A DNA stretch of 35,886 nt, taken from the IMG/VR virus record IMGVR_UViG_3300042923_001064, positions 1-35,886 of that record; one strand, written 5' to 3'. Every line of letters starts with the position of its first letter. Within the stretch, counting starts at the first letter, position 1. The translations under genes were made by a program, and so were the position numbers. Positions 1 through 34,313 of this stretch are shown here, piece after piece. The notes beneath the pieces were generated by a model. It made no database searches, was not told the origin of the DNA, and was given only the letters and a program-made list of their open reading frames with translations. The stretch comes from a virus.

Positions 1-127
1 GTCAGCGTGCCATAGTTAAAGCAAATTGTGATTATAGTGTTTCTGTACACTTTAACGCATATGGCGATGGAAAGAGCTTTAACAGTGCTGAGGGTATAGG
101 TATCTACATCCATAATCAGTACATAGA
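1..127. repeat. Terminal direct repeat, left copy
   Basis: Bases 1-127 are identical to 35760-35886, and the amidase reading frame continues through the overlap without a break. A repeat of exactly 127 bases that falls inside a gene is what a circular contig leaves when cut at an assembly word of that size. It is most simply an assembly overlap rather than a biological terminal repeat. The unique genome is therefore 35,759 bp, circular or circularly permuted in the sample. Confidence 0.93.
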
Positions 128-506
128 GCAGTCTGAGCGATTGGCAAAGGTAGTACTTAAACATCTGTCAGGCGGCAGCTCACAGAAAAATAGAGGAATT
201 ACAAAAAAATCCCTTGCCATGTGTAACTGTAATAACATGGATGTCAAAGCAGCAATCCTTGTTGAATTGGCTTTTATGACTAATCTCGATGAAGCTACCA
301 AGCTTATGGCAAATAAGGAATACTGGAAAGAAAGTGCGGTTGAAATCTGTAAAGGCATATGTGAGTACACCGGTATTAAGTACGTGCCAGAAAAGTCGGT
401 CATGTATAAGGTTCAAGTAGGAGCATATACCATCAAGAAAAATGCTGAAAGATTATCATTAGAACTGGAGAAACTCGGATATACAAATATAATAGTTGAA
501 GCATAA
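1..506 (+). CDS. N-acetylmuramoyl-L-alanine amidase (endolysin), C-terminal part
   Basis: This is the continuation of the gene that starts at 35492. Joined across the circular overlap it encodes 257 residues. It would cut the bond between N-acetylmuramic acid and L-alanine in host peptidoglycan at the end of infection. Amidase_3 hallmarks are visible: DAGHG (zinc His13), Glu43, SVHFNA (zinc His106) and the catalytic Glu in VELAFMTN (about Glu178). Residues from about 225 (YKVQVGAYT, then a KLGY motif) match a SPOR domain, which binds glycan strands stripped of stem peptides. The stop is at 504-506 and is followed at once by a terminator, so this is the last gene of the lysis operon. Confidence 0.93.
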   Translation, partial: QRAIVKANCDYSVSVHFNAYGDGKSFNSAEGIGIYIHNQYIEQSERLAKVVLKHLSGGSSQKNRGITKKSLAMCNCNNMDVKAAILVELAFMTNLDEATKLMANKEYWKESAVEICKGICEYTGIKYVPEKSVMYKVQVGAYTIKKNAERLSLELEKLGYTNIIVEA

Positions 507-510
507 GATA

Positions 511-543
511 ACCCCGGTCATATTGGCCGGGGTATTTTTTTTT
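511..543 (+). terminator. Rho-independent terminator after the amidase
   Basis: ACCCCGG and CCGGGGT pair around a 9-nt loop (511-533), followed by a run of nine T after a TA. It closes the late/lysis transcript. Because it stands upstream of the open frame at 564-854, that frame receives no obvious transcription from the lysis operon. Confidence 0.9.
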
Positions 544-563: not shown

Positions 564-854
564 ATAAATAATAATTTATCTAATATGACAACAGAATTCA
601 TGACGGTGGCAGACACAGCGTATACGTTAGAATTAATCACCAAGCATATATATGTGATTTCAATAAATAGCACAAATTCGGCTTACCAATGTCTTTATTT
701 CCTAGTCAAACCAAATTCATCAAATACGTATGTAATACCGGTTAAGACAGCATCAGGGGTAACAGTTACAGCAAGTGGAGCCACTATTCAGATAACCACT
801 AACTCTTACCCGATGCCTATCACACTTATTGATCTGACTAAATTTGAAGCTTAG
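564..854 (+). CDS. Silent tail-tip cassette C (alternative C-terminus of the tail fibre)
   Basis: The open frame runs through the 14-bp core at 565-578, which reads INNN plus Leu, and continues for about 90 residues to the stop at 852-854. The first ATG is at 585 but has no Shine-Dalgarno sequence. The frame lies directly behind a terminator, so it looks unexpressed in this arrangement. The product is rich in Thr, Ser, Asn, Val and Ile, as in beta-structured receptor-binding heads. The active tail gene at 33027-33893 enters its variable region at the same core in the same frame, so recombination at the cores would give an in-frame fusion. The function as an alternative tip is inferred from this arrangement, and I see no sequence match to a named family. 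Confidence 0.6.
   Translation: MNNNLSNMTTEFMTVADTAYTLELITKHIYVISINSTNSAYQCLYFLVKPNSSNTYVIPVKTASGVTVTASGATIQITTNSYPMPITLIDLTKFEA
565..578 (+). repeat. Inversion core site C (TAAATAATAATTTA)
   Basis: This is one of four copies of the 14-mer I found: 565-578 (+), 1197-1210 (-), 33574-33587 (+) and 34298-34311 (-). Each stands at the same reading-frame position at the start of a tip-like coding stretch. The sequence is nearly palindromic (TAAAT and ATTTA arms) with an asymmetric AATA centre that gives it direction. Upstream, site C shares AACATnnGTTnGA with site D. Confidence 0.65.
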
Positions 855-878
855 GTTTGTTGTGGACTAATAGCCATT

Positions 879-1286
879 TTAAATCAGAACCGGTAACTGC
901 CCGCTAAGTGTTAAAATAGATAAAGGGACTGCGTAAGCCTGGCTATTCGATATAGTAATATTGTTCATGCTACCTGACACATCACTAATCGTATATGTTA
1001 ACAAACTTGCGTTAATCAAATGGTTTATACTTGCTTTTTGGGTTTGGTTTCCTGTGTTGCCTCCGTAGACAATTGATAGCCCTCTATACCCGGTTAAATA
1101 ATGATTAGTAGCAAAAACATATACACCGGGATAGTAAACGCTTATTACAATGCTTGAGTTAGCTGGTACGTTATAGGTTACATTTTTTAAAGCTCCTAAA
1201 TTATTATTTATCAAACGGATGTTCTGGATAAAGTCAACATAATGTGGATTAATATAATTACATATGACAAGTATGTGCATACACAT
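879..1286 (-). CDS. Silent tail-tip cassette D (alternative C-terminus of the tail fibre)
   Basis: This frame reads on the minus strand, tail-to-tail with cassette C, with 24 bp between the stop codons. The core at 1197-1210 encodes INNNL at about residues 26-30. The part after it, about 105 residues, is rich in Asn, Ser, Thr, Val and Tyr and looks beta-structured. An ATG at 1286 opens the frame, but no Shine-Dalgarno sequence precedes it, and the first 25 residues are probably not translated in this form. The serine recombinase gene ends 26 bp away at 1313. Inversion between this core and the one at 33574 would place the cassette in frame behind the fixed stem. The tip role is inference. Confidence 0.6.
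   Translation of the reverse strand: MCMHILVICNYINPHYVDFIQNIRLINNNLGALKNVTYNVPANSSIVISVYYPGVYVFATNHYLTGYRGLSIVYGGNTGNQTQKASINHLINASLLTYTISDVSGSMNNITISNSQAYAVPLSILTLSGQLPVLI
1197..1210 (-). repeat. Inversion core site D (TAAATAATAATTTA on minus)
   Basis: This minus-strand copy of the 14-mer is flanked on its own strand by GA before and GG after. It is inverted relative to sites A and C. Inversion against C (632 bp apart) would swap C and D in place. Inversion against A across the lysis genes would bring D behind the tail stem. Confidence 0.65.
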
Positions 1287-4978: not shown

Positions 4979-5209
4979 TTAACGGTTTGAGTGACAGAGG
5001 TAATTGTCAGTTATCTCGAGGACATCAACGAGCTTAGCTAAATTACAGTGCCTTGGCTCGTAGGTGCCGTTTAACCAGTGCCTAATTGTTGATTTCTTTA
5101 CACCGGTGTACATGGATAGACCATATACAGACAAAGAGCGACTTTGCATCGTGTCCAATAAGCGCGTTGCAAAGGTATCATTAAAAAAGAAGAAAAAGAA
5201 GAAGACCAT
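4979..5209 (-). CDS. Small HTH (XRE-like) protein, 76 aa
   Basis: The helix-turn-helix is seen in LSVYGLSMYTGVKKSTIRHW followed by LNGTYEPRHCNLAKLVDVLE, an XRE-like arrangement. The chosen ATG at 5209 follows AAGGGGGGTG, but the protein then begins MVFFFFFFFND. Seven Phe in a row are unusual, so translation may start later, for example at the Met before QSRSL. It is read against the surrounding early genes and lies between the arms of a 27-bp inverted repeat, which sets it apart as an insertion or a self-contained switch. Confidence 0.6.
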   Translation of the reverse strand: MVFFFFFFFNDTFATRLLDTMQSRSLSVYGLSMYTGVKKSTIRHWLNGTYEPRHCNLAKLVDVLEITDNYLCHSNR

Positions 5210-5873: not shown

Positions 5874-6029
5874 ATGGTGGTAGAGGAGATTAAAATTAAA
5901 AATGCTACAGTCAAGTATAACGACGCTAGCATAAAAAGCAGAGAACAGTCAGAAGAGAATATGCAGAGAGCAGCTGACATTATGCTCAGACATCTTAATG
6001 CAAAGCATAATCAAGTTAAACCTAAGTAG
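5874..6029 (+). CDS. Small early protein, 51 aa, unknown
   Basis: ATG 5874 follows AGAGGTG. The product is short and highly charged (KSREQSEENMQRAADIMLRH), predicted helical. It is the first of a tight string of genes continuing through 7398. It is not recognised. Confidence 0.6.
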   Translation: MVVEEIKIKNATVKYNDASIKSREQSEENMQRAADIMLRHLNAKHNQVKPK

Positions 6030-6050
6030 TTAAGAAAGGAAATTAAGCCT

Positions 6051-6176
6051 ATGAATTATGATGAGTTTACGCTATTTGATTGTATTGCTCTGTATGAATT
6101 TAAGGGCACGGAAGTAATCATTCAGAATGGTCACATTACAGGCCTTCTAGAAACAAATGAAAGGAGAAGAAATTGA
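6051..6176 (+). CDS. Small early protein, 41 aa, unknown
   Basis: ATG 6051 has a weak Shine-Dalgarno (AAGGAAATT). The product starts MNYDEFTLFD and has a VIIQNGHITGLLE strand pattern. The stop overlaps the TTG start of the next gene by four bases (TTGA), which supports translational coupling and the reality of both genes. Confidence 0.6.
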   Translation: MNYDEFTLFDCIALYEFKGTEVIIQNGHITGLLETNERRRN

Positions 6177-6571
6177 AAAAGCAACTTGAAACATCTGAAA
6201 TTCAAAATGGAGCATGTATATATTGCGGACAGCTCATGCCTTTTGAAACAACAGGACTAGCCAGGGAAGATGATCTAAATGAATGGGCTACTGAAAAGTG
6301 TGATTGCTCAGAGGCAAAGATATATGCCAAGAGAAAAAAATCATTATCCGGAGCAAAGGAAAAAATCAAACAATTCTTTGGTTCCGAGTCATCAGGTGAA
6401 ATAGTAATCAAATTACTGGACATGGCAACTGATGCAATCTTTGAAAATAAGATTGATGATTTAAGCATCAACATTGGTAACGGCTGCAAGGGAAAGGTAT
6501 CACAGAATTCTAAAGGTAATATCAAGGTAGAAAGAACTGATACAAGAAAAGTCAAATACGAACAAAGTTAA
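6173..6571 (+). CDS. Zinc-ribbon-like phage protein, 132 aa
   Basis: TTG 6173 follows AAGGAGAAG and overlaps the stop codon of the previous gene. The N-terminus has CIYCGQLM and, 30 residues later, CDCSEAKIY, a likely zinc ribbon. The C-terminal half (about residues 70-130) is charged and could contact nucleic acid (KVKYEQS at the end). It sits directly upstream of the ssDNA-binding protein, so a role in DNA metabolism is plausible but not shown. Confidence 0.75.
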   Translation: MKKQLETSEIQNGACIYCGQLMPFETTGLAREDDLNEWATEKCDCSEAKIYAKRKKSLSGAKEKIKQFFGSESSGEIVIKLLDMATDAIFENKIDDLSINIGNGCKGKVSQNSKGNIKVERTDTRKVKYEQS

Positions 6572-6590
6572 AAGAGAAGGAGAACATAGG

Positions 6591-7238
6591 ATGAATAACA
6601 ATAACGCTAAATTTATAGGTACCGTAGTTAGTCCATTTGAGTATAGCCATTCAATGTATGATGAAAAATTTTATACAGTATATGTAAGCTCAAATAGGAC
6701 AAGCGGTGTAGCAGACATCATGCCGGTATTAGTATCAAACCGGGTATATAGCAAAAAAGAGGACCTGCAAGGAGTACGTGTTGAGATAACCGGATCCTTC
6801 AGGAGCCACAACAAACATTTCAATGGCAAAAGCCATCTAATTCTTTATTTATTTGCTGATACATTTACCCAGACCGAAAAAGAGGTAGATGAAAACAGTA
6901 TCAAACTAAACGCATTTCTATGCAAAATTCCAAGCTACAGAGAAACACCATTTTTAAGAAAAATATCAGATGTAATACTAGCGGTAAACAGAAACTGCGG
7001 TAAATCAGATTATCTACCGGCAATTGCATGGTCTCGTAATGCTGCATATATGTCTACGCTAAAAGCTGGAGATCATGTATTAATCAAAGGTAGGATACAA
7101 TCACGCTACTACATGAAAAAAATAAAAGAAAACGATTATGAAGAGCGGATAGCATATGAGGTATCAATACAATTTATTGATTTGTTGGATACCGGAGGTG
7201 AAAGTTATGAAGGTGATAGAGAGCCAGAAGTATTATAG
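6591..7238 (+). CDS. Single-stranded DNA-binding protein
   Basis: The protein has 215 residues. The first half begins with NAKFIGTVVSPFEYSH and contains LQGVRVEITGSFRSHN, and the second half contains NAFLCKIPSYRETP...YLPAIAWSRNAAYMSTLKAGDHVLIKGRIQSR. These are OB-fold features of SSB-type proteins, with the second half closest to the classical primosomal PriB/SSB pattern. It should coat ssDNA during replication or recombination. The acidic tail (SYEGDREPEVL) replaces the usual DDDLPF tip of bacterial SSB. It precedes an HUH Rep-like gene, which would make ssDNA. Confidence 0.8.
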   Translation: MNNNNAKFIGTVVSPFEYSHSMYDEKFYTVYVSSNRTSGVADIMPVLVSNRVYSKKEDLQGVRVEITGSFRSHNKHFNGKSHLILYLFADTFTQTEKEVDENSIKLNAFLCKIPSYRETPFLRKISDVILAVNRNCGKSDYLPAIAWSRNAAYMSTLKAGDHVLIKGRIQSRYYMKKIKENDYEERIAYEVSIQFIDLLDTGGESYEGDREPEVL

Positions 7239-7569: not shown

Positions 7570-8427
7570 ATGACAAAGTACTATGACTATGATCCAGAGG
7601 AGATATACGACAGAGACGTTCTAGGAGAAGAAACGACAGAGGAAAAGATAGAGCAGCTGAGAGGTAAAAATTATTCTTACGTAGTAAAGACCATAGTAAG
7701 TGGTCCGGTAGTTGAATGTGAAATATATCCGGTATTTACAAACAAAAAGAATTTACCGCGGAGGAATAAAGAAAAGACATCCAGAAATGTACAGAAGAAT
7801 TTGAATGATAAAAATGCAAAGAAGAAAGTATCACGATTAGTAAATGCAAATTTTACAAGTAAAGATTTAGCGGTAACGCTCACTTATACAGATCATTATT
7901 TACCAAACGAAAAACAAGCAAGGAAGGATGTTACTAATTTTCTTCGGAGGGTTAGTAGGTACCGTAAGAAACATGGACTACCAGATCTGAAGTACATTTA
8001 CGTAATCGGATGTGTAGATGATGAAGAACGGAAGCACTCAAAGAAAGTAAGAATACATCATCATCTGATTATAAATGATATGGACCGTGATGTGGTGGAG
8101 GGCCTTTGGGGAAAAGGAAGAGCTGAGGCAAAGCGATTACAGCCGGATGATTTTGGGCTAGAAGGTATTGCAAGATATATGGCTGGACAGAACAACGGAT
8201 CTAAGAGATGGTATGCTTCAAGAAATTTGGATCAACCTAAGGTTTATAGATCGTTTACCAAATTGACAAAAAAGAAAGCAGAGCAGATGTATCGCACACA
8301 GGCTGACTGGGAAGAGACTTTTGAAAAGATATACAAAGGTAAGTATAAATACCTTGATTGTAAACCTTATGAAAGTGATTTTACCGGAGGCTTTTATTTA
8401 TACGCAAGAATGCGTAAGAGAGAATAG
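7570..8427 (+). CDS. HUH rolling-circle Rep-like protein (replication initiator)
   Basis: The protein has 285 residues. Rep motifs appear in order: DLAVTLTYTD near residue 100 (motif 1), RIHHHLII with the HUH pair His163/His165 that holds the metal (motif 2), and GIARYMAGQ with candidate nicking Tyr203 (motif 3). Enzymes of this class nick one strand at an origin and stay linked to the 5' end. It follows SSB, and I see no helicase loader, primase or polymerase in the genome. It is therefore the best candidate for the replication initiator, perhaps recruiting host enzymes. The usual lysine after the motif-3 tyrosine is not evident (GQNNGSK instead). Confidence 0.8.
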   Translation: MTKYYDYDPEEIYDRDVLGEETTEEKIEQLRGKNYSYVVKTIVSGPVVECEIYPVFTNKKNLPRRNKEKTSRNVQKNLNDKNAKKKVSRLVNANFTSKDLAVTLTYTDHYLPNEKQARKDVTNFLRRVSRYRKKHGLPDLKYIYVIGCVDDEERKHSKKVRIHHHLIINDMDRDVVEGLWGKGRAEAKRLQPDDFGLEGIARYMAGQNNGSKRWYASRNLDQPKVYRSFTKLTKKKAEQMYRTQADWEETFEKIYKGKYKYLDCKPYESDFTGGFYLYARMRKRE

Positions 8428-8438
8428 GAGGTACGCGA

Positions 8439-8675
8439 ATGTACACATGTATGATTTTATTTATAGTTTTAACCATAGCGTATGTAGTGGAACTTAGTTA
8501 TGACTATGGAGTGGTGCTTGAAAAAAGGTATGCTAAAAATATTAGAAAAAAATATTGTATCAGATTGATATTGGCAACATTAATCATGTATTTTACCGCT
8601 TTGTGGTTAGTTACTAAATTTGGTGTCACATCATATAACTTGGGGGACTTCCTCAGGCATGGAATTGTGAGATAG
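8439..8675 (+). CDS. Small membrane protein, 78 aa
   Basis: Two membrane segments are predicted: residues about 1-20 (MILFIVLTIAYVVEL) and about 43-60 (LILATLIMYFTALWLV), joined by a basic loop (KRYAKNIRKK) that should lie inside the cell. AGGAGG stands upstream of ATG 8439. It is in the replication operon. The role is unknown, possibly anchoring replication or exclusion. Confidence 0.75.
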   Translation: MYTCMILFIVLTIAYVVELSYDYGVVLEKRYAKNIRKKYCIRLILATLIMYFTALWLVTKFGVTSYNLGDFLRHGIVR

Positions 8676-8684
8676 GAGGATACC

Positions 8685-9143
8685 ATGGAGGTTAACATTT
8701 ATATTGATGTATATCATTCGGGCCATCTAAAAAAAGGCAGCGGTACCTATAACATTGTTTTAGAGTATGCACCGGCAGGAGTCCCATGGACCAAACAATA
8801 CATATACGGAGTACGGTTTACTACTAAAAACCGTACAGCAATAATAGCCTGTATCTCAGCTCTGGAGCATATAGTCAAGCCATGTGATATCAACATCAAG
8901 ATCAATTCAGAGTACATCACCCAGGCAATCAATAGTAATGCATGGTTTACATGGTTAAGCACCGGAAAGAATGCTAAAAATCAGCCGGTGAAAAATATGG
9001 ACCTATGGCAGCAGTTGTTTGATCTAGTGGACAAGTACCATGTAACTTTTGAATATGTGGAGAAAAATCCATATACAAGTTATATGCAGACGATGGCCAA
9101 GAAAGAAAATATTGAATATAAGGAGGATACCAATAATGTATAA
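8685..9143 (+). CDS. RNase H-like protein, probably inactive
   Basis: The protein has 152 residues. The fold is recognisable from NIYIDVYHSG at the start, RTAIIACISALEHI in the middle and the CDINIKINSEYI strand. In RNase HI the acidic residues D10, E48, D70 and D134 bind metal. Here the first is kept (Asp8), the E48 position appears to be Ala52, the D70 position appears to be Asn74 (INSEY for TDSQY), and no D134 equivalent is clear. It is therefore likely a nucleic-acid-binding relative without cleavage activity. AGGAGG lies 8 bases before the ATG. Confidence 0.72.
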   Translation: MEVNIYIDVYHSGHLKKGSGTYNIVLEYAPAGVPWTKQYIYGVRFTTKNRTAIIACISALEHIVKPCDINIKINSEYITQAINSNAWFTWLSTGKNAKNQPVKNMDLWQQLFDLVDKYHVTFEYVEKNPYTSYMQTMAKKENIEYKEDTNNV

Positions 9144-11874: not shown

Positions 11875-13161
11875 TTGGATAACATGCAAATGAGTTATCA
11901 GGGAATGAAAGATGCCATTAAAAGAGAATTAAATCAAATAGCAGAAAGTTTCGTAGAAATTGGATACCGATTAAAAGAAATTAGAGATAAAGAATTATAT
12001 AAGATTGATGGGTACCGCAATATCAATGAGTTTGCTCAGGCAGAGTATAACTTAAGCCAATCTACCACATCAAGGTTTATAGCCATTAACGATAATTTTT
12101 CAGTCAATGGCAGCAGTCCTAAGTTACTGGAGCAGTTTGAGGGTTATGGATTTAGTAAATTATCAGAAATGTTGACGTTATCAGAGGAGGATTTAAGGCT
12201 TGTTTCTATCAGAACAACAAGGGCGGAAATCAGAGAGATTAAGCAGGCTAAGAAAGAAGCAGAGAATGAAATTTATGCGCCGGCGCATAACGCTAGAAGC
12301 ACTGATTTTACTCAATTAAATGGCACTTTTGAAGGTGAAAAAACATACATAATTCCAGACGCTGGGAAGCTATTGATTGAGCTATTTCGGGATAAGTCTA
12401 AAAGAGTTGTTTTAAAAGAAATGGCAGCAGTTTTATCTGATTCATGGACGAATGAAGCTATAGCCAAGGCAGCAGAACTAATCAATCCTTCAGGACATCT
12501 GTTATTCAGAAAAGGAATGATAGTATTAATCTTTGAAGAGGACCATATCAAATATAACAAATTTGGTGCTGAGTCCGCTGATTATACTTATAAGGACTTT
12601 TTAAATGATTTATTCAAGACGTTTGATATGAGCCTGAAGGATCCTTGGGTTGCATTTTACGGAGAACCGATACCAGAGCCAGAACAACCAAAGAAAGAGA
12701 CAGTACCTGAGAAAAAGGATATTAAGAGCCAAGCGACCGCTAAGCCGGTGAATAAAAAACCTGAGAAGAAAGCTCCTACTACTCATCACGAGAACGATGA
12801 AGATGAAGAAGATGAAGATGAGAAGGACGAGCCGGAAACAATACCAGGGCAACAAAGAATAACCGATTATCCTGAATATATCCCAGATAAAAATGAAGTG
12901 ATTCAAGGGAAATTGGAAGAAGCAATAGAAACAGAATACAACACTGAGATATTACCGGAAATTGAGAATTATAATGTCGAGGTTGTAGAGGCCGATATTG
13001 TGGAAACACCAAAAGAGGAATGTGATATAGAAACAGTTAATATCAACTTTGATAAAACAACCGGAGAGTTAGAAATTTTATTAAAGAGCAAATTTGATAT
13101 AAAAGTTATTAAGGTTATCGATACCATAACCGGAGAAAGCTGGGAAGTATCAATTGGTTAA
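11875..13161 (+). CDS. ParB-like/DUF3102-type DNA-binding protein
   Basis: TTG 11875 has AAGGAGG 8 bases upstream, giving 428 residues. The N-terminal 140 residues resemble DNA-binding regions of ParB/DUF3102-type phage proteins: helices around IGYRLKEIRDKELYKIDGYR, then a helix-turn-helix at YNLSQSTTSRFIAIND and a second helical part ending in RAEIREIKQAKKEA. A globular middle domain follows (about 150-265). Next comes a long acidic, disordered linker (HENDEDEEDEDEKDEPE) and a beta-rich tail. It probably binds phage DNA, perhaps in replication or gene control. The exact family is uncertain. Confidence 0.6.
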   Translation: MDNMQMSYQGMKDAIKRELNQIAESFVEIGYRLKEIRDKELYKIDGYRNINEFAQAEYNLSQSTTSRFIAINDNFSVNGSSPKLLEQFEGYGFSKLSEMLTLSEEDLRLVSIRTTRAEIREIKQAKKEAENEIYAPAHNARSTDFTQLNGTFEGEKTYIIPDAGKLLIELFRDKSKRVVLKEMAAVLSDSWTNEAIAKAAELINPSGHLLFRKGMIVLIFEEDHIKYNKFGAESADYTYKDFLNDLFKTFDMSLKDPWVAFYGEPIPEPEQPKKETVPEKKDIKSQATAKPVNKKPEKKAPTTHHENDEDEEDEDEKDEPETIPGQQRITDYPEYIPDKNEVIQGKLEEAIETEYNTEILPEIENYNVEVVEADIVETPKEECDIETVNINFDKTTGELEILLKSKFDIKVIKVIDTITGESWEVSIG

Positions 13162-13222
13162 AAAGGGTTCAGAGCTGTTTATAAACATATCACAATGGAG
13201 TTAAATGGCATGTCATAGATAT

Positions 13223-13244
13223 CCGGAGGTGTAACAGCCTCCGG
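13223..13244 (+). promoter_or_regulatory. Intergenic hairpin CCGGAGG/CCTCCGG
   Basis: A perfect 7-bp stem with an 8-nt loop lies between the ParB-like gene and the small genes that follow. The stem contains an AGG that could mimic or hide a ribosome binding site. No T-run follows. It may be a processing or pausing signal. Confidence 0.4.
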
Positions 13245-13256
13245 GGAAAGGAGCCT

Positions 13257-13400
13257 ATGAGGATCATAAATAGGTACCATATCAAATTATTAACCAAAAA
13301 ATGCAGAGGACACTGTAAACGGTGTAAATCATCCAGAACATGCAAAAGCGTGAGAAGGGAGAAACGATGGGATACTGGCTTAATAAAATCAAAGAATTAG
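13257..13400 (+). CDS. Small basic Cys-rich protein, 47 aa
   Basis: ATG 13257 follows AAAGGAG. The product is strongly basic with four cysteines (CRGHCKRCKSSRTC), perhaps a miniature zinc finger. It overlaps the next gene in another frame by 34 bp. The family is not recognised. Confidence 0.5.
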   Translation: MRIINRYHIKLLTKKCRGHCKRCKSSRTCKSVRREKRWDTGLIKSKN

Positions 13401-13537
13401 AAGATGAAAAAAGTAAACTCGAACAGGAAAAGGAACATTGGAAAAGAGAAGCTATTCGTCTGGCAGCAGAGCTGGAAGAAATAAAGATTAAGATAGCTCA
13501 GGAAGCCATGAAAGTAGGTGTACATATTGGAAAATAG
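13367..13537 (+). CDS. Short coiled-coil protein, 56 aa
   Basis: ATG 13367 follows AAGGGAGAAACG. Most of the protein (residues 8-48) is a continuous charged heptad region (LEDEKSKLEQEKEHWKREA), so it should form a coiled coil. An in-frame ATG at 13340 without a ribosome binding site is less likely. The function is unknown. Confidence 0.65.
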   Translation: MGYWLNKIKELEDEKSKLEQEKEHWKREAIRLAAELEEIKIKIAQEAMKVGVHIGK

Positions 13538-13742
13538 ATGTGTATCCTGTGGAGCAATCATCCCGAAAGGTAGACAGACATGTAAAACATGTGAGGATGC
13601 AGTAACCTGCAAGTGTGAGTACTTAGATGAAATCTATTGTAAGATAACAACGTTGAGGTGCATGGGAAAGATATGTGCATTGTATGGTGGTAAGGAGCAT
13701 CTATCCTATCACCCAAATGGTATTAATGATATCAAAGCATAA
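13527..13742 (+). CDS. Cys-rich zinc-ribbon protein, 71 aa
   Basis: TTG 13527 with AGGTG 6 bases upstream is preferred. GTG 13518 is the alternative. The N-terminus NRCVSCGAIIPKGRQTCKTC is a classic four-Cys ribbon common in Clostridia phages. The second half has further cysteines (TCKCEY, YCK, RCMGKIC). Its last 42 bp overlap the converging gene 13701-13982. Confidence 0.72.
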   Translation: MENRCVSCGAIIPKGRQTCKTCEDAVTCKCEYLDEIYCKITTLRCMGKICALYGGKEHLSYHPNGINDIKA

Positions 13743-13982
13743 TGTGATTGTATTTTTAAATCCATAAGCAATATAAACACACTCAAATATTTTAACACCT
13801 GGTTTATCCTTTATAGCCTTGATAGCATCAATCTTATATTTAAAGAGCTCACAGTTATCATCCTCTACACAGAAATACCTTGGGATTAAATCACCAACAG
13901 TATTAAAAGCCACTATCACAGAGACAGGATGGCCTTGGGGATGTCTGATTATAGGTTTATGATCATGATTTAAAAATGGCAT
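13701..13982 (-). CDS. Lone minus-strand gene, 93 aa, possibly SOS-controlled
   Basis: The start is ATG 13982, with GAGGTG 8 bases upstream. The frame extends further up, but that region holds the promoter. The product begins MPFLNHDHKPIIRHPQGHPV and has the look of a compact alpha/beta protein. The family is not recognised. It is the only gene on the minus strand within 13 kb of plus-strand early genes, and it has its own promoter with a LexA-like box in the spacer. This suggests expression independent of the lytic programme, either from the prophage or after DNA damage. Confidence 0.72.
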   Translation of the reverse strand: MPFLNHDHKPIIRHPQGHPVSVIVAFNTVGDLIPRYFCVEDDNCELFKYKIDAIKAIKDKPGVKIFECVYIAYGFKNTITLCFDIINTIWVIG

Positions 13983-14001
13983 ATTATTCACCTCAGAAAA
14001 T

Positions 14002-14030
14002 ATTATAACAAACAAATGTTCTATTGACAA
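14002..14030 (-). promoter_or_regulatory. Promoter with LexA-like box for 13701-13982
   Basis: On the minus strand, TTGTCA (complement of 14025-14030), 17 bases and TATAAT (complement of 14002-14007) form the promoter. The spacer contains AGAACATTTGTTTG (complement of 14009-14022), which matches the Gram-positive LexA consensus at 12 of 14 positions. Confidence 0.65.
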
Positions 14031-14060
14031 TAAACAGTATATGTAAAAGGAGGCAATAAA

Positions 14061-14330
14061 TTGACTGCAGCTGAGATCAGAGAAAATGTATTAAGTAATT
14101 ATGCGGTAGGGCAAGAAATAACAATGAAGATATTGAATGATGTAGGAAAGGTAACAGATACTTTCCAAGCAACCATAATGAAGCTTTATCCATCTCACGT
14201 CAGCGTTAACCATAATGGATACATAGAAAGCTTTTCATACTGGGAGTTCACAAAGTATGCAAGTGGCTTTAATCAAAAGAAAAAACTTGCAATAGGAACG
14301 AAGCATGTGAGAAAAGCAAAGTATGCTTAG
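14061..14330 (+). CDS. Conserved-looking phage protein, 89 aa, unknown
   Basis: TTG 14061 follows AAGGAGGCAATAAA. The protein has a short N-terminal helix (TAAEIRENVLSNY) and then a beta-rich part (GQEITMKILNDVGKVTDTFQ...PSHVSVNHNGYIESFSY), like a small barrel. It ends in a basic tail (KHVRKAKYA) that could bind nucleic acid. It lies at the head of the accessory gene string. Confidence 0.7.
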   Translation: MTAAEIRENVLSNYAVGQEITMKILNDVGKVTDTFQATIMKLYPSHVSVNHNGYIESFSYWEFTKYASGFNQKKKLAIGTKHVRKAKYA

Positions 14331-14349
14331 TATACTAAGAAAGGAGCCG

Positions 14350-14415
14350 ATGAGAATGAAGAGAGAAGAAAAAGCATTTGCATTCTTTGCAGCATGTTTG
14401 GAACTATTTATTTAA
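14350..14415 (+). CDS. Mini-ORF, 21 aa
   Basis: ATG 14350 has AAGGAG 4-5 bases upstream. The peptide begins MRMKREEKAFAFFAACLEL, with basic residues followed by a hydrophobic stretch. The stop codon is part of the recurring linker TTAAGATTTAG (14412-14422). It may be a leader peptide or a remnant of a longer gene. Confidence 0.35.
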   Translation: MRMKREEKAFAFFAACLELFI

Positions 14416-14491
14416 GATTTAGCGCACTAACTTTAGACAAAAAGAATTAAAAGTGTAAAGCAAAAATACATAAATAAAGGATGGTGTAAAT

Positions 14492-14797
14492 ATGACAGTT
14501 AAAGAATTTGCTGAACTATTTGGAATGACCGTAACAGAATTATCAGAGTTCTCCGGGTACACCAGACAAGCACTCTATAACATCATTGAGGGGAATGCAA
14601 TTGTTAATTCGAGAAGGTATAATGCTCTGCTTTTACATCTTGAGGATTATGCATGGAAGCAGAGCTGTGAGAAGTCCGGTGCGATCATGAAGGAATATGA
14701 AACAAGGATAGCAGCCATTAAAGAGCTGAAGAACGTTAAAAGGAATTATAATCCAGTCGAGGCAGATGATTACGATTTTAAGCGGTGCATGATTTAG
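14492..14797 (+). CDS. HTH regulator-like protein, 101 aa
   Basis: The first 45 residues form a helix-turn-helix (FGMTVTELSEFSGYTRQALY), followed by a helical region with basic residues. AGGATGG stands before ATG 14492. It is probably a small DNA-binding protein of the early region. The target is unknown. Confidence 0.7.
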   Translation: MTVKEFAELFGMTVTELSEFSGYTRQALYNIIEGNAIVNSRRYNALLLHLEDYAWKQSCEKSGAIMKEYETRIAAIKELKNVKRNYNPVEADDYDFKRCMI

Positions 14798-14811
14798 CGG
14801 AGGTAAAATTG

Positions 14812-14994
14812 ATGATAGGGAAAGCAGCATTATGGAAATATGATGGTGAATTAGGCATTGCATATTTTTGCCCTGACTGTAAGAGGTTTGTTTGCTCCGA
14901 TGGAAAATGCGATTGTGGAACAGAAATAGATTTATCGCTTCCTAAAACAAAATACTGTGGAAAGGTAAAGTGGGAAAATTATCGTTTGAATTAA
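14812..14994 (+). CDS. Small zinc-ribbon protein, 60 aa
   Basis: ATG 14812 lies 8 bases after GGAGG. TTG 14809 is also in frame. The pattern YFCPDCKRFVCSDGKCDCG contains five cysteines arranged like a zinc ribbon. The function is unknown. Confidence 0.68.
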   Translation: MIGKAALWKYDGELGIAYFCPDCKRFVCSDGKCDCGTEIDLSLPKTKYCGKVKWENYRLN

Positions 14995-15028
14995 GATTTA
15001 GCTCATTGAGAGCGGAAAGAAGGTATAT

Positions 15029-15424
15029 ATGTGTAGTTTGAAGAAAGGCAGCCATACAGTAATCAAGAATGATGATGTATTTGAGCATCTTTCGTTATCG
15101 GAGCGTGAGATATTAAGGATATTGCTTGATAAGGTTGAGAATGGTAGAAAGACGGCAGGGAAGAAATTGAATGAATATTACATCTGTAACACTGATGAGC
15201 CTTATGCTGCTGGAGTATTGCAGTTAATTTTACTCGGAGAAGAGAGAAAAGCCTTTTGCGAAAATATCAAAGATGAAAAATGCAGTACCAGGGATTATGG
15301 ACCAAATCAGTATAAAGAACCTTGCTATGAATGTTGCTTAGGGTGTGCCGGTGCAATCAATATGGAGTGTAATTTTGTCTGCACTAAAGTAGCTGAGCAT
15401 TATCATCCTGAAGATGAGGATTAG
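15029..15424 (+). CDS. Cys-rich protein, 131 aa, unknown
   Basis: ATG 15029 follows AGAAGG. A helical N-terminal half (LSEREILRILLDKVENGRK) is followed by a Cys-rich C-terminal part with about ten cysteines (PCYECCLGCAG, CNFVC) and a closing HYHPEDED. Metal binding is likely. The stop overlaps a copy of the recurring linker. Confidence 0.7.
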   Translation: MCSLKKGSHTVIKNDDVFEHLSLSEREILRILLDKVENGRKTAGKKLNEYYICNTDEPYAAGVLQLILLGEERKAFCENIKDEKCSTRDYGPNQYKEPCYECCLGCAGAINMECNFVCTKVAEHYHPEDED

Positions 15425-15448
15425 AATTAAGATTTTACGGAGGTAAGT

Positions 15449-15697
15449 ATGGGATTTCAAAAAGATTGCAAACATCCATTTAAAATTACTTGTAAATTCA
15501 AAATGTATGGAATGAGAGGGTGCGAGATTAGGTTAGAAAGTGGTGAAAACTTATCATACATGCCAATTCCAGAAGATGTTAGATTTTCATTTGCAAGTAT
15601 AGAAAGATTTTATATTACTGATGCTGGGCAAAAAATCATATCAGACAAATTGGATGAAATAAATAAGCTAAAAGATAAATATATGATTAGTAACTAA
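15449..15697 (+). CDS. Small protein, 82 aa, unknown
   Basis: ATG 15449 follows CGGAGGTAAGT. The N-terminal part is beta-rich (CKFKMYGMRGCEIRLESG) and the C-terminal part is helical (SDKLDEINKLKDKYM). The family is not recognised. It belongs to the accessory string separated by linkers. Confidence 0.65.
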   Translation: MGFQKDCKHPFKITCKFKMYGMRGCEIRLESGENLSYMPIPEDVRFSFASIERFYITDAGQKIISDKLDEINKLKDKYMISN

Positions 15698-15724
15698 ACT
15701 AAAATCAAGATTTGGAGGTGCTGA

Positions 15725-16003
15725 GTGAGAAATATAAGCGCAGTATGGAAGTTAGAATTATCGAAAAGAGTAAAGCATCATTTGAAAACTCATCCCCGAT
15801 TTTATGATGATGTAATGAATGAGAAGAAATGTTTTGAACTGAGAATAAACGATAGAGATTATCAAATTGGTGATGTATTCATTCTTCATGAATTTAAAGA
15901 TGGCGAATATACAGGCAGATGGTATGTAAATGTAATAGATTATATACTTAAAGACTGTCCGGAATATGGGTTAATGGATGGCTACTGCATATTTGGTTGG
16001 TAG
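15725..16003 (+). CDS. DUF3850 (ASCH-like) protein, 92 aa
   Basis: GTG 15725 follows TGGAGG. The family pattern is clear: HHLKTHPRFYDDVMNEKK, then CFELRINDRDYQIGDVFILHE and YTGRWYVNVI. DUF3850 proteins adopt the ASCH/PUA-related fold and are expected to bind RNA or modified nucleotides. They are common in phages of Firmicutes. The biochemical role is unknown. Confidence 0.88.
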   Translation: MRNISAVWKLELSKRVKHHLKTHPRFYDDVMNEKKCFELRINDRDYQIGDVFILHEFKDGEYTGRWYVNVIDYILKDCPEYGLMDGYCIFGW

Positions 16004-16151
16004 ACTAAACTAAAATTTAGCCAATAAGACCCTAGATGTTTGAGCGAAGCGAGTTGATCTTACGAGTCTATAGGAGATTAAAATTTAGTAGAGGAAGGAA
16101 TAACGACATATGGTTAATATTTTAATTTAGTTGAAGGAAAGGAAAAAATTT

Positions 16152-16535
16152 ATGAATGCAGTAGAAACAGCCGAGAAGCTTCGATCATACATATGGGCTA
16201 CTATGGAAGTAATGGAAAGACATAATAACAGACCGGACATAGTAGAAACGGGTAAAGAAAAAATTGAAAGTCTTTTAGCTGCAGAAGAGGCAGTAAAAAA
16301 GCAAATACTAAAGCAACCAACTTTAAAAACGTTCCATGATATCATGAGACAAGCAACAGTGCAAAGAGTTCAATGTCCTTGTTGTAGCGAAAACATTACT
16401 ATTATAGAATTTGCAATAGAAAAAGAAAAAGTATTTAAAGAGAATGAGAATTATAAACATTGCGTGAATTGCGGTCAAGCTTTAGATTGGAGTGGAGAAA
16501 GCGAGGTAAAGACAGATGGGATGTCCTATACGTGA
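16152..16535 (+). CDS. Zinc-ribbon protein, 127 aa
   Basis: ATG 16152 is chosen after GAAGGAAAGG. The N-terminal 75 residues are helical (KLRSYIWATMEVMERHNN) and the C-terminal part carries VQCPCCSENI and HCVNCGQAL, a four-Cys zinc ribbon. It overlaps the next gene by 20 bp. The function is unknown. Confidence 0.72.
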   Translation: MNAVETAEKLRSYIWATMEVMERHNNRPDIVETGKEKIESLLAAEEAVKKQILKQPTLKTFHDIMRQATVQRVQCPCCSENITIIEFAIEKEKVFKENENYKHCVNCGQALDWSGESEVKTDGMSYT

Positions 16536-16785
16536 TCGATGTCCAGATGAAGATACAATCAAATGTGATACCTGTAACAAGGGTGCCAAGCTAGAGCCGG
16601 TAAAGCTAGATACTAAAGATGCAATAGAGTACTTAAAAGAAGCTAATGAATATTATGATAGAGTACTAGGAGATAAAGCCAAGCAGCTGAAGGAGTACAG
16701 AGTAAATCAGATGGCAATTAAAGCACTGGAAAGCGAATTACAGTATGAAGAATTTTTAAAGATGTATACGGCAGCAGTACAATAG
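16516..16785 (+). CDS. Small Cys-motif protein with helical tail, 89 aa
   Basis: ATG 16516 lies within the end of the previous gene. The N-terminus MGCPIRDRCPDEDTIKCDTC has four cysteines, followed by a long helical part (DAIEYLKEANEYYDR...). This is a typical small phage protein of unknown role. Confidence 0.65.
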   Translation: MGCPIRDRCPDEDTIKCDTCNKGAKLEPVKLDTKDAIEYLKEANEYYDRVLGDKAKQLKEYRVNQMAIKALESELQYEEFLKMYTAAVQ

Positions 16786-16843: not shown

Positions 16844-17851
16844 ATGTACAGTATGGATGAGGTAATATTGGGGATTACAGCAGCAATGTATAAAAGCTTA
16901 AATCAAGATCAGACAAATGAGCTAAAAACTGTTTTATATATGCACCTAGGTAAGTATCAGTTGGTCCAAGAAGAAACCGCTATATCAACAATGATAGATG
17001 ATAATTCGGATAAGATTAATATGTTTCTGGCCACGCTGAGTATTGAGGGTAAATCAGATAAAACCATTAAGGCATATAAGTGTGAGTACAGAGTATTCTT
17101 CTCAGCAGTCAATAAAAACTTTAGGGATGTCACAACTAATGATGTGAGAATGTATCTAGCACATTGTAAGACTGTAAGAAAGAATAGTGATACTACTCTC
17201 AATAATCGTATACATATGCTGATGAGCCTATTCAAGTGGTTGACAACCGAGGAGTATATAAGCCGCAATCCAATGCTTAAAATCCATATTGTAAAAACTG
17301 AAAAGAGGGTAAAAGAAGTATTATCCGATGAACAGGCAGAGATGATCCGTTGCTCTTGCGATAAAGAAAGAGATCTAGCCATAATAGATATACTCGTAAG
17401 TACCGGTATGAGAGTAGGCGAATTAGTAAAACTCAACCGATCTGACATAGACTTTGTAAATGGTCAATGTATCGTTTATGGCAAAGGCAAAAAAGAAAGA
17501 CCGGTTTATCTCAATGGTAAAGCTAAGGTCCATCTTATGTGGTACCTGGAGCAAAGGACAGATAGCAATCCTGCATTATTCGTAGGATTGAAAGAACCTC
17601 ATGAGAGATTAACAGAGTCAGGAGTAAGAGCCATGATGTCAAAGCTCTGTGAGACCAACAAAGTAAGTAATCTGCATTTGCATCCTCATAAGCTCAGGAG
17701 GACCATGGCAACCAATATGATAAACAGGGGAGCACCTGCAGAGCACGTACAAAAGATACTAGGACACGCATCAGTACAAACAACGTTAGAGTGTTACTGT
17801 AATATGAGCACACAGGTAATAAAAGAAGCATATCGAAAGTATGCCGGATAA
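16844..17851 (+). CDS. Tyrosine recombinase (integrase/XerD-like)
   Basis: ATG 16844 follows AAGGGGGAAAGC and gives 335 residues. The N-terminal SAM-like domain (about 50-130: FLATLSIEGKSDKTIKAYK) binds the core site. The catalytic set is complete: Arg190 in STGMRVGEL, Lys in GKGKKERP (about 214-217), His282 and Arg285 in LHPHKLRRTM, His308 in LGHAS and Tyr318 in TTLECY. It could integrate the phage, resolve dimers, or both. It lies between the accessory genes and the late regulator, which is unusual for a main integrase but common in Clostridia phages that carry a second recombinase. Confidence 0.95.
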   Translation: MYSMDEVILGITAAMYKSLNQDQTNELKTVLYMHLGKYQLVQEETAISTMIDDNSDKINMFLATLSIEGKSDKTIKAYKCEYRVFFSAVNKNFRDVTTNDVRMYLAHCKTVRKNSDTTLNNRIHMLMSLFKWLTTEEYISRNPMLKIHIVKTEKRVKEVLSDEQAEMIRCSCDKERDLAIIDILVSTGMRVGELVKLNRSDIDFVNGQCIVYGKGKKERPVYLNGKAKVHLMWYLEQRTDSNPALFVGLKEPHERLTESGVRAMMSKLCETNKVSNLHLHPHKLRRTMATNMINRGAPAEHVQKILGHASVQTTLECYCNMSTQVIKEAYRKYAG

Positions 17852-30944: not shown

Positions 30945-32051
30945 ATGTATGAATTGGCAGCAAGTGGATTATCAGCCCAGCAGGTCATAAAGGCATTACA
31001 ATCCAACCGGGAAATAAAGTATGAATATGATCTTCTAAACAAAGAAGATAAAAAGATAGGGGCCTTATCCGAAGTGGAGGGCTCCTATTCTTTCAATTCT
31101 GAGGCTGTGATCAAGGGTACCGGTAGATTTATATTAAATGAAAAAGAATATAAAAACATCGATTTTCTAAGCGAAAGAATAAAACCATATTATTGCCTTA
31201 AGGTAGGATCTGAATGGATAAGGTGGGCCCAGGGAATATATCTTATGAACTCTCCTGATCGGAATGAACAGGATGGAGGTATATATAGAAATATAGAAGC
31301 CTACGATAAATCAATTATCCTTAAGGAAGATAAAGTTGATACCAGGTATTTTATAGCAGCTGGGACCATCTATACTGACGCTGTAAGAGATCTGATATTA
31401 TCTTCAGGCATTAACAAAATTAGCATTCAGGAAAGTAGCCTAGTCCTTACTGTAGATAAAGAATATGAGATAGGTACTAGCAAACTTGACATTATTAATA
31501 ACCTGCTCAACAGCATCAACTATAATTCGGTATGGTTTGATAATAATGGGTTCTGTGTAGTAAGAAAGTACATTAATCCTAAGGAAAGATCTTATGAATT
31601 TGTATATAAAACGGATAATAACTCGATTACAACCTATGGTTCATCTGAGACAATTGATGCTTTCAGTATACCGAATAAATTTATAAGATACGTGGAAAAT
31701 CCTGAAACGGATTATATGATATCAATATTTATAAACGATAAGGCAAGTAATCCATTATCTACTGTAAGCCGCGGAAGGACCATAACGGATATCGAAGCAA
31801 TTAATGATATACCGGATCAGGCGACCTTAGATGATTATGTAAAAAGGATTGCAAATGAAAAGAGTAAGGTAATCGGGGGGATAAAATTTAATACATTACC
31901 TATGCCTCATCATTCCTTCCTGGATTGTCTATATATCAAAAATACAACCTTAGATATATCAGAAAAATTTATTGAAACAGCATGGAGCATCAATACATCA
32001 GTAAATGGTCTGATGTCTCATACCTGCAGAAAGGTGGTTGAACTATGGTAG
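30945..32051 (+). CDS. Tail tip/baseplate hub-like protein
   Basis: The protein has 368 residues. The pattern (IKYEYDLLNKEDKKIGALSE, GTGRFILNE, IRWAQGIYLMNSPDR) is seen in hub-like (DUF5048-type) phage tail proteins. The beta-rich build and the order between distal tail protein and fibre support a baseplate hub. The function is by analogy. Confidence 0.65.
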   Translation: MYELAASGLSAQQVIKALQSNREIKYEYDLLNKEDKKIGALSEVEGSYSFNSEAVIKGTGRFILNEKEYKNIDFLSERIKPYYCLKVGSEWIRWAQGIYLMNSPDRNEQDGGIYRNIEAYDKSIILKEDKVDTRYFIAAGTIYTDAVRDLILSSGINKISIQESSLVLTVDKEYEIGTSKLDIINNLLNSINYNSVWFDNNGFCVVRKYINPKERSYEFVYKTDNNSITTYGSSETIDAFSIPNKFIRYVENPETDYMISIFINDKASNPLSTVSRGRTITDIEAINDIPDQATLDDYVKRIANEKSKVIGGIKFNTLPMPHHSFLDCLYIKNTTLDISEKFIETAWSINTSVNGLMSHTCRKVVELW

Positions 32052-33034
32052 ATGCAAATGAATTAGTAAAATTACAAACCAATCAACCATCTGAAAATAA
32101 AGTGAAACTTGCCACAGTATCAGGATTATATGAAAACGGTACAGCAAAAATAACATTTTTTGGAGAGGCAGTAGAAAGCCAAAAAAGCTACAGTTACTTA
32201 GCTGGTTATCAGCCGGCAATCGATGATACTGTATTAATGCTTCCTTGCGCTGACACATACATCATTGTAGACAGAGTGCTATTACAATCGGAAGTACCCA
32301 TTGACCTAGTAACACAATTGGAGATGCAAGATGCTATACAGGATTTTGTTACCGAAGCAGCACTTACATTAATACTTACTGGTTACGCACTAACTGGACA
32401 CACTCATTCAACATATTCATTGACGGGCCACACACATACAACATATTCTTTAACCACTCATGATCACACCGGTACATATGCTCCAATAACTCACTATCAT
32501 AGTTCAGTGAGACATGCTTCAGAGACATCCTATAATGCCGGACTTAATATTATATCTAACGGATACCCAGCATTTATACCGAGCTCTAATAATATGGATT
32601 TAGGATCTTCTTCATACAAATGGAGGGTAGTATATGCAGGAACAGGTACGATAAACACATCAGATAAGAGACAAAAGAAAAATATAAAACCTATCTCAGA
32701 TAAGTATGAAAAACTTTTCAAAATGTTACGTCCTGTGTCTTATAAATTCAGGAAAAATCAAAGTAACAGATTACATATTGGATTTATTGCACAAGAGGTT
32801 GAAAAGTCAATGGATGAGATCGGAATGACTTCATCAGAATTTGCAGGATTTATAAAAGCTCCGGTAACCGATAAAAAAGGAAATATAAAGGACTATCAAT
32901 ACGGTCTGAGATATTCAGAGTTTATCGCTCTGAACAGCCACATGATACAACTACAAGAGAAAAAAATAAGTAAATTAGAGCAAAAAGTAAACATACTTGA
33001 AAATATAATTAAGGGAGGTGGAGCGAATGGTTAA
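32045..33034 (+). CDS. Tail fibre with HxH repeats and Peptidase_S74 chaperone
   Basis: The protein has 329 residues. Residues about 113-152 contain repeated GHTH and THDH motifs (YALTGHTHSTYSLTGHTHTT), which bind metal ions in trimeric fibres. The C-terminal S74 domain starts at SDKRQKKNI (catalytic Ser206), followed by FIAQEVEKSM and RYSEFIALNSHMIQLQEKK. This domain folds the trimer and then cuts itself off. It should yield a trimeric fibre involved in host binding. It overlaps the tip gene by a few bases. Confidence 0.92.
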   Translation: MVDANELVKLQTNQPSENKVKLATVSGLYENGTAKITFFGEAVESQKSYSYLAGYQPAIDDTVLMLPCADTYIIVDRVLLQSEVPIDLVTQLEMQDAIQDFVTEAALTLILTGYALTGHTHSTYSLTGHTHTTYSLTTHDHTGTYAPITHYHSSVRHASETSYNAGLNIISNGYPAFIPSSNNMDLGSSSYKWRVVYAGTGTINTSDKRQKKNIKPISDKYEKLFKMLRPVSYKFRKNQSNRLHIGFIAQEVEKSMDEIGMTSSEFAGFIKAPVTDKKGNIKDYQYGLRYSEFIALNSHMIQLQEKKISKLEQKVNILENIIKGGGANG

Positions 33035-33893
33035 TGTGTCTTTTTCGGAATCCGGAGTGGCCACATATGATAAGCATGCATTTTATCAATATGATTATGG
33101 ACGTACATTAGTAATTGATGGGTTGGAACTGCCGGCAACTGTACAGGTCCATTTTGCAAGAAAAGATGTTCCGGCCGAGATTATGCTAGGGACAACGGTA
33201 GATGGAGTAATGACAGTTGAGGTACCTGCAACAACATTACAATATGCAGGTGAATTCAATGTTTACATATTTCTAACCACAGATACAACAGGGAAAACAT
33301 ATAAAACATTATCATTTACCACGAGAAAAAGAGAAAAGCCATTAGACTATGCTGCAGAGGCTGAACCGGGAATTATAGACCAATTAACACAAAAGCTTAA
33401 TCAGATTATTGATACAGGAATAGCATCCTATGTACCAGATGAGGCAGCAGTAAATGCAATGATATTGTCATACGTACAGGCTAATTTGATTACCAATAAT
33501 GATGCTGCTACGGTACCTGGTACCGCTTGGGACGCTGTAAGAGGTAAGCAGATTAGGACAGATCTGAATACGCTAAATAATAATTTAGCTTATACAAGAG
33601 GTACTATTACTTTAAGCTCTGGATTTACCGCGGTCATTAATAAAACGTGGAAGCAGGGCATCCTAAGGGTAATATCTGGGTCGATAAATGGCACATTTGC
33701 AGCCGGTGTAGCACATACGATTGGTACGGTACCGGCTGATTTTAAGCCTGATGTTACACGATGGACAGCAGGGGCTACTCCGTCCGGAGCATCGGCAACG
33801 GTTGGTGTAACTGGAACGGCAGGCGAAGTTGTCATAATACCCAAAGATGCTGCCACCGAAATAAGATTCACGCTGATATATTTTACTTGGTAA
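33027..33893 (+). CDS. BppU-like tail-tip protein with switchable C-terminus (active cassette A)
   Basis: ATG 33027 follows GGGAGGTGGAGCGA and gives 288 residues. Residues 1-100 match BppU-type baseplate proteins (FYQYDYGRTLVIDGLELP). A short coiled linker (KLNQIIDTG) leads to the codons for LNTLNNNLA at residues 180-188, which carry the 14-bp core at 33574-33587. Beyond it, about 100 residues form a beta-rich tip (ASATVGVTGTAGEVV). The core marks the fixed/variable border shared with the silent frames at 564-854, 879-1286 and 33902-34313. The stop is 8 bp from the stop of cassette B. It is the currently expressed receptor-binding variant, by inference from order. Confidence 0.8.
   Translation: MVNVSFSESGVATYDKHAFYQYDYGRTLVIDGLELPATVQVHFARKDVPAEIMLGTTVDGVMTVEVPATTLQYAGEFNVYIFLTTDTTGKTYKTLSFTTRKREKPLDYAAEAEPGIIDQLTQKLNQIIDTGIASYVPDEAAVNAMILSYVQANLITNNDAATVPGTAWDAVRGKQIRTDLNTLNNNLAYTRGTITLSSGFTAVINKTWKQGILRVISGSINGTFAAGVAHTIGTVPADFKPDVTRWTAGATPSGASATVGVTGTAGEVVIIPKDAATEIRFTLIYFTW
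33574..33587 (+). repeat. Inversion core site A (active position)
   Basis: TAAATAATAATTTA lies inside the tail-tip gene, flanked by GC on both sides (GCTAAATAATAATTTAGC). The silent sites have GA on the left. This site faces B (34298-34311) and D in inverted orientation, and C in direct orientation. Confidence 0.7.
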
Positions 33894-33901
33894 ATAGCTA
33901 T

Positions 33902-34313
33902 TTATGGAACAAAATAAAACCCACTTAAATGCACCTCGAATGCATCTGATATACTGCCAACGTTCAACAATGCTACTCCTGAATTATCTGAAATTAGATA
34001 GAATATAATGTAGTTCGTTCCAGCACCAACTGTAGCTGTTATTTCTTTGTAGGCACCGAAATTAACATAATTCGCTATGCCGATATGCATACTAGTTCTC
34101 GTACCTGTGGCTGTAAAAGGTAAATTCCCAATTAGGACACCGCCTGCCATTCCGCCTTTTGCTGATATCTTGATTGATACATTTATAAAGACCATTTTAC
34201 CTATACGGTAATAAAATCCGGATTGAGTTGCATATGTTGGTGATCCGGCTGTAGTCGAACCATAAAGCACAGGTGAAAAACTGCTGGATTGCAACGCTAA
34301 ATTATTATTTATC
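33902..34313 (-). CDS. Silent tail-tip cassette B
   Basis: A minus-strand open frame without an ATG or ribosome binding site at its head runs from the core at 34298-34311 (read INNNLAL) to a stop at 33902-33904. The product is about 135 residues after the core. It contains Ser/Thr/Gly-rich beta pattern segments (LYGSTTAGSPTYATQSG, then GNLPFTATGTRTSM) and ends LSGFYFVP. It lies tail-to-tail with the active tip, 8 bp between stops. Inversion of 33574-34311 would swap the two tips and join this frame to the stem. The function as an alternative receptor-binding head is inferred. Confidence 0.7.
34298..34311 (-). repeat. Inversion core site B
   Basis: The minus-strand copy of TAAATAATAATTTA shares a further GC on the right with site A (16 identical bases). 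It lies 738 bp from the far edge of site A, a suitable span for a local inversion. Confidence 0.7.

Follow-up and report, generated by a model that had tools for sequence, protein, structure and literature searches.

The window analysed here is the whole stretch of 35,886 nucleotides of the IMG/VR virus record IMGVR_UViG_3300042923_001064. Its two ends share an exact overlap of 127 bases, and the window is thus read as a circle of 35,759 bp. Around this circle lie a stem gene, two tail-to-tail tips (A and B), a group of small and lysis genes, a terminator, a second pair of tips (C and D), an attP-like sequence and the gene of a large serine recombinase. As the genome is circular, C and D are found 2013 bp from the site of tip B and not remote from it, as the linear coordinates would suggest.

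The stem gene (33027-33584, + strand) encodes the constant part of a tail-fibre or receptor-binding protein (phrog_16164, E 1.3e-17, over residues 1-126), and its frame continues into tip A (33576-33893, +), which is fused to the stem and is the expressed tip. Tip B (33902-34309, - strand) is silent, is placed tail-to-tail with A and is matched by phrog_28473, tail fiber, at E 1.6e-6. The + strand between 34359 and 35508 then carries genes for a 114-aa protein, a 113-aa coiled-coil/holin-like protein and a 97-aa holin-like protein, all named by reading rather than from a family search, and a similar gene order is annotated in locus L092. The C-terminal part of an endolysin, amidase-like by reading, occupies 1-506 (+), with its start near 35462-35500 across the circle join, and is followed by an intrinsic terminator at 511-533 (+). 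The silent tips C (567-854, +) and D (879-1208, -), again tail-to-tail, are both open frames that run from a core, and beyond them are the attP-like sequence (1257-1300, -) and the serine recombinase (1313-2902, -). Ahead of the stem, the gene at 32045-33034 has a Peptidase_S74 (endosialidase chaperone) domain; it is a second fibre-like protein, outside the shufflon. Elsewhere, a run of A and G only is present at 5183-5205, near repressor-like genes.

The core and its four cassettes

Central to this layout is an exact 14-bp core, TAAATAATAATTTA, which has four matches in the window, where 100 dinucleotide shuffles gave a mean of 0 and a largest count of 0; the reversed 12-mer of the core is absent from the window. 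Site 1 (33574-33587, +) is the active junction and corresponds to residues 184-187 of the stem gene, with site 2 (34298-34311, -), site 3 (565-578, +) and site 4 (1197-1210, -) at the starts of B, C and D, respectively. Sites 1 and 3 are in direct orientation, as are sites 2 and 4, and the two sets are opposite to one another, the distances being 737 bp (1-2), 645 bp (3-4), 2013 bp (2-3) and 3395 bp (1-4). From the core, the frame that continues the stem remains open for 105, 135, 95 and 109 codons in A, B, C and D, and it is the sole open frame in all four cassettes, the other two frames meeting a stop after 0-6 codons. The convergent stops are separated by 8 bases in A/B and by 24 bases in C/D (854 and 879). 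The sequence shared between the window cassettes ends at 14-17 bp, and within it the codon third positions are identical, even in the untranslated copies. The two bases that precede TAAAT are GC at the expressed site and GA at the silent sites (3/3 in the window and 1/1 in phage Y, a relative described below).

Much of this agrees with what had been proposed from the letters alone. Recomputation of the positions confirms that C and D start in one 14-bp core and converge with 24 bases from stop to stop, and that they are unrelated in sequence is supported by BLASTP between them, which gives no match at E<=1. By eye, no ribosome binding site is seen ahead of ATG 585 or ATG 1286, and the terminator said to precede C is present as a 10-bp stem with 7 G-C pairs and a T run. 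The proposal of four alternative tips for one stem, held in inverted cassettes of the shufflon type, is upheld by the shared core and the open frames, as well as by phage Y and by two relatives whose tips are rearranged. Tip D, which had been drawn as 879-1286, is shortened to 879-1208, as the frame upstream of the core (1209-1286) enters the attP-like sequence, and in our reading that upstream frame is no part of a gene.

Homologues and models of the stem and tips

Few relatives of the stem were found, with identities of 67% to locus L005 and 54% to phage Y (L009). Bacterial genome contigs searched with the stem alignment and with a 368-aa tail-protein alignment gave no relative, and an exact 22-mer of the stem end occurs in 0 viral contigs, so that no alternative arrangement of the window phage was found. 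Tip B has matches in 24 phage records, several of which are named tailspike or tail protein. Searches of tips A, C and D against phages by tblastn gave no match at 0.01, and tip D likewise had no match among the viral contigs. Against solved structures, the stem with tip A had no match at E<=1 and tip D had a single match at chance level. The model of C (mean pLDDT 62.2) finds its best PDB match in a phage tailspike (E 6.5e-3), with viral matches from 1.5e-3 and none at E<=0.001; coming from a low-confidence model, this weak likeness to phage tailspike/tail-fibre domains is suggestive only. The model of D, with a mean pLDDT of 43.6, was left unused. Diversification by a reverse transcriptase was also considered and is thought unlikely, because the tips fail to align with one another.

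Phage Y and L005

Phage Y, which forms part of record G005, has a stem and one tail-to-tail tip pair. Its core, TAAATGATAATTTA, differs from that of the window by one base and is accompanied by TAAATGATAATTTT in inverted orientation, the inverted repeat (ACGCTAAATGATAATTTAGTAGTGGAAGA versus ACGATAAATGATAATTTTGTGGTAGAAGA) being identical at 25 of 29 positions. The two repeats are alike over ~60 bp and their differences still encode similar residues. The 54-kb record holds no PF00589 protein, that is, no tyrosine recombinase, and either a host enzyme serves phage Y, or its pair is frozen, or its serine enzyme does more. L005 has the stem without an inverted core or cassettes, and without a serine recombinase. 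The record G005 itself contains a 3.9 kb repeat, 12606-16536 matching 49994-53858 by ORFs, and at its start a second serine recombinase accompanies a comM-like host gene (by reading). The assembly has probably joined a circular phage of ~37 kb to part of another prophage.

The long likeness between the repeats of phage Y bears on whether the cassettes could be inert leftovers of homologous or illegitimate tip exchange, the core being shared simply as coding sequence for NNNL or NDNL, and the occurrence of LNDNL/INDNL-like stretches in fibres and HsdS alike would fit such an origin. In the window, however, the shared stretch stops within 14-17 bp and keeps its third positions in copies that are untranslated, and both the permutation of L142 and L143 and the spacer regularity among loci (see below) point to site-specific recombination, which leaves inert leftovers as the least probable of the explanations weighed here. 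A working set of cassettes is the reading that we prefer.

The large serine recombinase as a probable integrase

Which enzyme, then, moves the tips? The serine recombinase is a protein of 529 aa with resolvase, recombinase and zinc-ribbon domains (PF07508, PF00239, PF13408), and it matches the phrog_95 integrase at E 3.7e-102. The attP-like sequence is located 12 bases past its stop in both the window and L009, and is identical between the two at 35 of 44 positions, against a shuffled maximum of 29. A 30/44 match is found in L007 at offset 11 (shuffled maximum 27), and the 27/44 match in L006 is weak, its shuffled maximum being 26. The cassette sites reach at best an ungapped match of 19/44 to the attP-like sequence. 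In L006 a relative of the serine recombinase abuts a LysM-domain host-like gene (7581-8469; YaaH-like, by reading), and this junction is probably an integration site. After integration the recombinase and the cassettes would come to lie at opposite ends of the prophage, such that the two would be adjacent in the circle only. It is on the basis of the attP-like sequence (whose att role is predicted from its sequence), the phrog_95 match, the host-gene junction of L006 and the prophage geometry that the serine recombinase is taken as an integrase, one that probably acts at its own attP.

Could the same enzyme both integrate the phage and shuffle the tips? It adjoins C and D, it is common to the window and to phage Y, whose record is without a tyrosine recombinase, and L005 presents a stem that has neither cassettes nor serine recombinase. 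Opposed to this are the fixed offset of the attP-like sequence, the host-like gene that begins directly past the recombinase in L006, the poor match of the cassette sites to the attP-like sequence and the position of the recombinase, in the prophage, at the opposite end from the cassettes; such a double role is very unlikely. The earlier suggestion that the adjacent serine recombinase is the shuffler is accordingly given up as the leading explanation: the relatives of this enzyme resemble ordinary integrases, an attP-like sequence of its own lies beside it and the core does not occur with its relatives. As judged from the ORF list and a Pfam scan of 8 proteins, the window contains no small serine invertase, the sole resolvase-fold protein being the 529-aa recombinase.

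The tyrosine recombinase and its family

The window phage also encodes an XerD-like tyrosine recombinase (16844-17851, +; PF00589, E 3.2e-35), separate from the probable integrase, which is proposed as the tip shuffler. It is located ~15 kb from the cassettes and does not flank the tips in the window. Four homologues, three of which come from hsdS loci, align with it from end to end, N-terminal region included, at 37-45% identity. The best matches in the phage collection are L104 (45%), L105 (44%) and L103 (41%), gut contigs with type I restriction genes. These three (MT838471, MT839915 and MT835621, respectively) were deposited as human-gut bacteriophage and look like invertible hsdS loci. 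The core of phage Y is present in 4 exact copies in each of L103 and L104, where it encodes INDNL within HsdS-like frames, and in L105 as 1 exact copy and 2 copies with one mismatch.

In a tree made by a quick method from 61 recombinases of at least 280 residues, with locus numbers no higher than L170, the hsdS recombinases group together (84), with the window recombinase next (SH-aLRT 91) and most of the tail ones elsewhere, on branches that are long and unstarred. The spacing from H to Y is 10 residues in the window recombinase. Of the 83 relatives, 15 are without an LGH motif as searched, and among the 68 in which it was recognised 63 have a spacing of 9. The recombinases of L142 and L143 have no Y at nine either, and the spacing in the window may therefore be harmless. 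Taken together, the enzyme that swaps the tips is most likely the phage tyrosine recombinase, a member of the family of recombinases of invertible hsdS loci. As a separate observation, several members of this recombinase family are clustered in L140 and in L146 (records G035 and G041).

A site rule across loci

The sites of this family appear to follow the form TAAAY-N4-ATTTA. An inverted pair of such sites with the same N4 is found in 17 of 83 tyrosine-recombinase loci and in 0 of 80 serine-recombinase loci, and permuted-arm controls (n=150) gave a mean of 0.09 loci with a maximum of 2. The absence of same-spacer pairs from the serine set, in an exact test that misses L009 on account of one mismatched arm, is a further point against the serine recombinase as both integrase and shuffler. 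The 83 loci are made up of 77 from the viral-contig search plus L102-L105, L107 and L108; L106, L109, L110 and L111, weaker matches with no core at one mismatch, are outside the count, which would be 17/87 with them. As the pair test is exact it also misses L105, L113 and L137. This spacer-matched count replaces counts of the exact core, which stood at 8 in the 77 tyrosine loci against 0 reversed, and at 1 in the 80 serine loci against 0.

The spacers found are GATA, CATA, AATC, GAGA, AAGA, GCTA, AGGG and CGTG, with one spacer per locus, L135 with its two being the exception. Such uniformity within a locus would be expected if a tyrosine recombinase needs identical crossover regions. Of the 17 positive loci, 16 carry the hsdS label; the remaining one, L123, is a tail-fibre locus. 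A search with PF01420 covered 50 of the 83 loci and gave an HsdS match in 25 of the 50 records, the remainder including tail-fibre loci. In the window all 4 sites have the spacer AATA, which none of the 16 pair-bearing hsdS loci shows.

These comparisons bear on the thought that a host-encoded hsdS invertase acts in trans on the phage sites, the phage tyrosine recombinase being otherwise employed. Phage Y makes the case for it, given that its core is also that of the hsdS loci L103, L104, L118 and L127, yet it has no PF00589 protein. The window phage, however, encodes its own member of the family, and its AATA spacer is that of none of the paired hsdS loci, and a host enzyme is for these reasons an unlikely shuffler in the window. 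The tyrosine recombinase of the phage itself is the preferred candidate.

Tail loci of the same family

In L123 a stem (6003-6899) is followed by a silent tip that ends at 6924 (-), the recombinase (8001-8999) and then a further + and - cassette, with four cores, AAATAGGGATTTA, and two tail-to-tail pairs in all. L108 has the recombinase and then two tail-to-tail tips that start at TAAATAATAATTTG and adjoin lysis-type genes. The recombinase adjoins the tips in L123, L142 and L143. In TPELB_ph1 (L102) a homologue of the recombinase adjoins a tail gene, and no convincing inverted site was found there.

The most instructive comparison is between two related phages, L142 (7293-9789) and L143 (7266-9763), in which slots 1-4 hold the tips p, q, r, s and s, r, q, p, respectively. 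Corresponding tips are 85-100% identical in protein. Identity is 99.8% between slots 1-2 of L142 and 4-3 of L143 and 93.5% between slots 3-4 and 2-1, and the recombinase block between the slots has kept its position (99.5%). The breakpoints are at an 11-bp repeat, CTAAATTCTGA, found in eight copies, one per slot in each phage, of which one has one mismatch. On these sequences L142 and L143 provide a naturally occurring case of a shufflon that works with four tips. Their site resembles that of the window in the TAAAT half only, and their recombinase is a distant member of the family, about a third identical to that of the window; they thus show what such a layout does and not that the window copy is active.

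Proposed mechanism

Our reading, which we regard as likely, is that the phage has a shufflon of four tips in which C and D form an unexpressed store, with the tyrosine recombinase as the likely shuffler and the serine recombinase as the integrase. The stem gene (33027) ends in the putative recombination site TAAAT-AATA-ATTTA, which also codes for the first residues, NNNL, of each tip. Inversion between opposite sites (1x2, 3x4, 1x4 or 2x3) would bring another tip behind the stem, and the tips would presumably bind receptors. The inversions would be performed by the tyrosine recombinase at 16844-17851, whose activity on these sites is predicted from its family and from the sites themselves. As deduced from the layout, use of D via 1x4, or of C after 3x4, would flip the lysis genes, and a 2x3 inversion would restore them.

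Relation to known systems

The inversion enzymes of the Min, Gin and Cin tail-fibre systems are small serine invertases. The window resembles these systems in having alternative tail-fibre ends that would be changed by inversion and is unlike them in the enzyme, as no small serine invertase is seen in it; all three systems are described as forming alternative phage tail-fibre ends via DNA inversion (PMC6109161). Closer in enzyme type is the Rin shufflon of Bifidobacterium prophages, where a phage tyrosine recombinase shuffles a receptor-binding protein (PMC6109161), and a Rin-type shufflon is reported in Eggerthella lenta prophages too (PMC8778435). Like the window phage, the Rin phages encode a tyrosine recombinase that is separate from their integrase (PMC6109161), and the two also share a constant N-terminus of the receptor-binding protein, several dissimilar C-termini and short repeats at their starts. 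The sites differ, the Rin site rix being given as the 11-bp asymmetric TTCCCTAACCC, whereas that of the window is TAAAT-AATA-ATTTA. They also differ in layout, since rin is said to flank its tips and the window recombinase is ~15 kb away, with lysis genes between the tip pairs.

On the side of restriction, PsrA drives hsdS inversions in Streptococcus pneumoniae, as set out in PMC7096588 and PMC4948785. From these descriptions the PsrA system, like that proposed for the window, pairs a tyrosine recombinase with inverted repeats that are short (15 bp for IR1 of PsrA), and cassettes kept silent are exchanged into a single expressed gene. Its target is a restriction specificity subunit whereas that of the window is a tail fibre, and the two are likened here by description. 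With the gut hsdS loci (L103-L105, L112 and others) the window shares both the recombinase family and the core. What is already known, therefore, are tyrosine-type tail shufflons (Rin) and the much-studied inversion of hsdS by PsrA, and what is new is a tail shufflon in which recombinase and site are of the hsdS type, the recombinase gene is remote and lysis genes separate the two pairs. A literature search that was thin on subscription papers gave nothing that joins hsdS invertases with tail shufflons or that names the core or the TAAAY-N4-ATTTA rule.

Implications

The rule TAAAY-N4-ATTTA with one spacer per locus offers a simple finder of such systems and a predictor of recombinase-site pairing. 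More tentatively, and doubtful as a whole, it may be proposed that tail and hsdS shufflons share one family and one site grammar, that shuffling in trans goes both ways, with phage Y dependent on its host, and that use of C or D flips the lysis genes. If this is true, phage Y would depend on a host hsdS invertase, a phage recombinase could rearrange the restriction genes of its host, and the flipping of the lysis genes would link the choice of tip to cell lysis. The tail tips of a phage determine its choice of host, and hsdS inversion gives bacteria a changing restriction specificity. Were enzymes and sites interchangeable between the two, the diversification of attack and that of defence would be exchangeable, and might even be cross-regulated.
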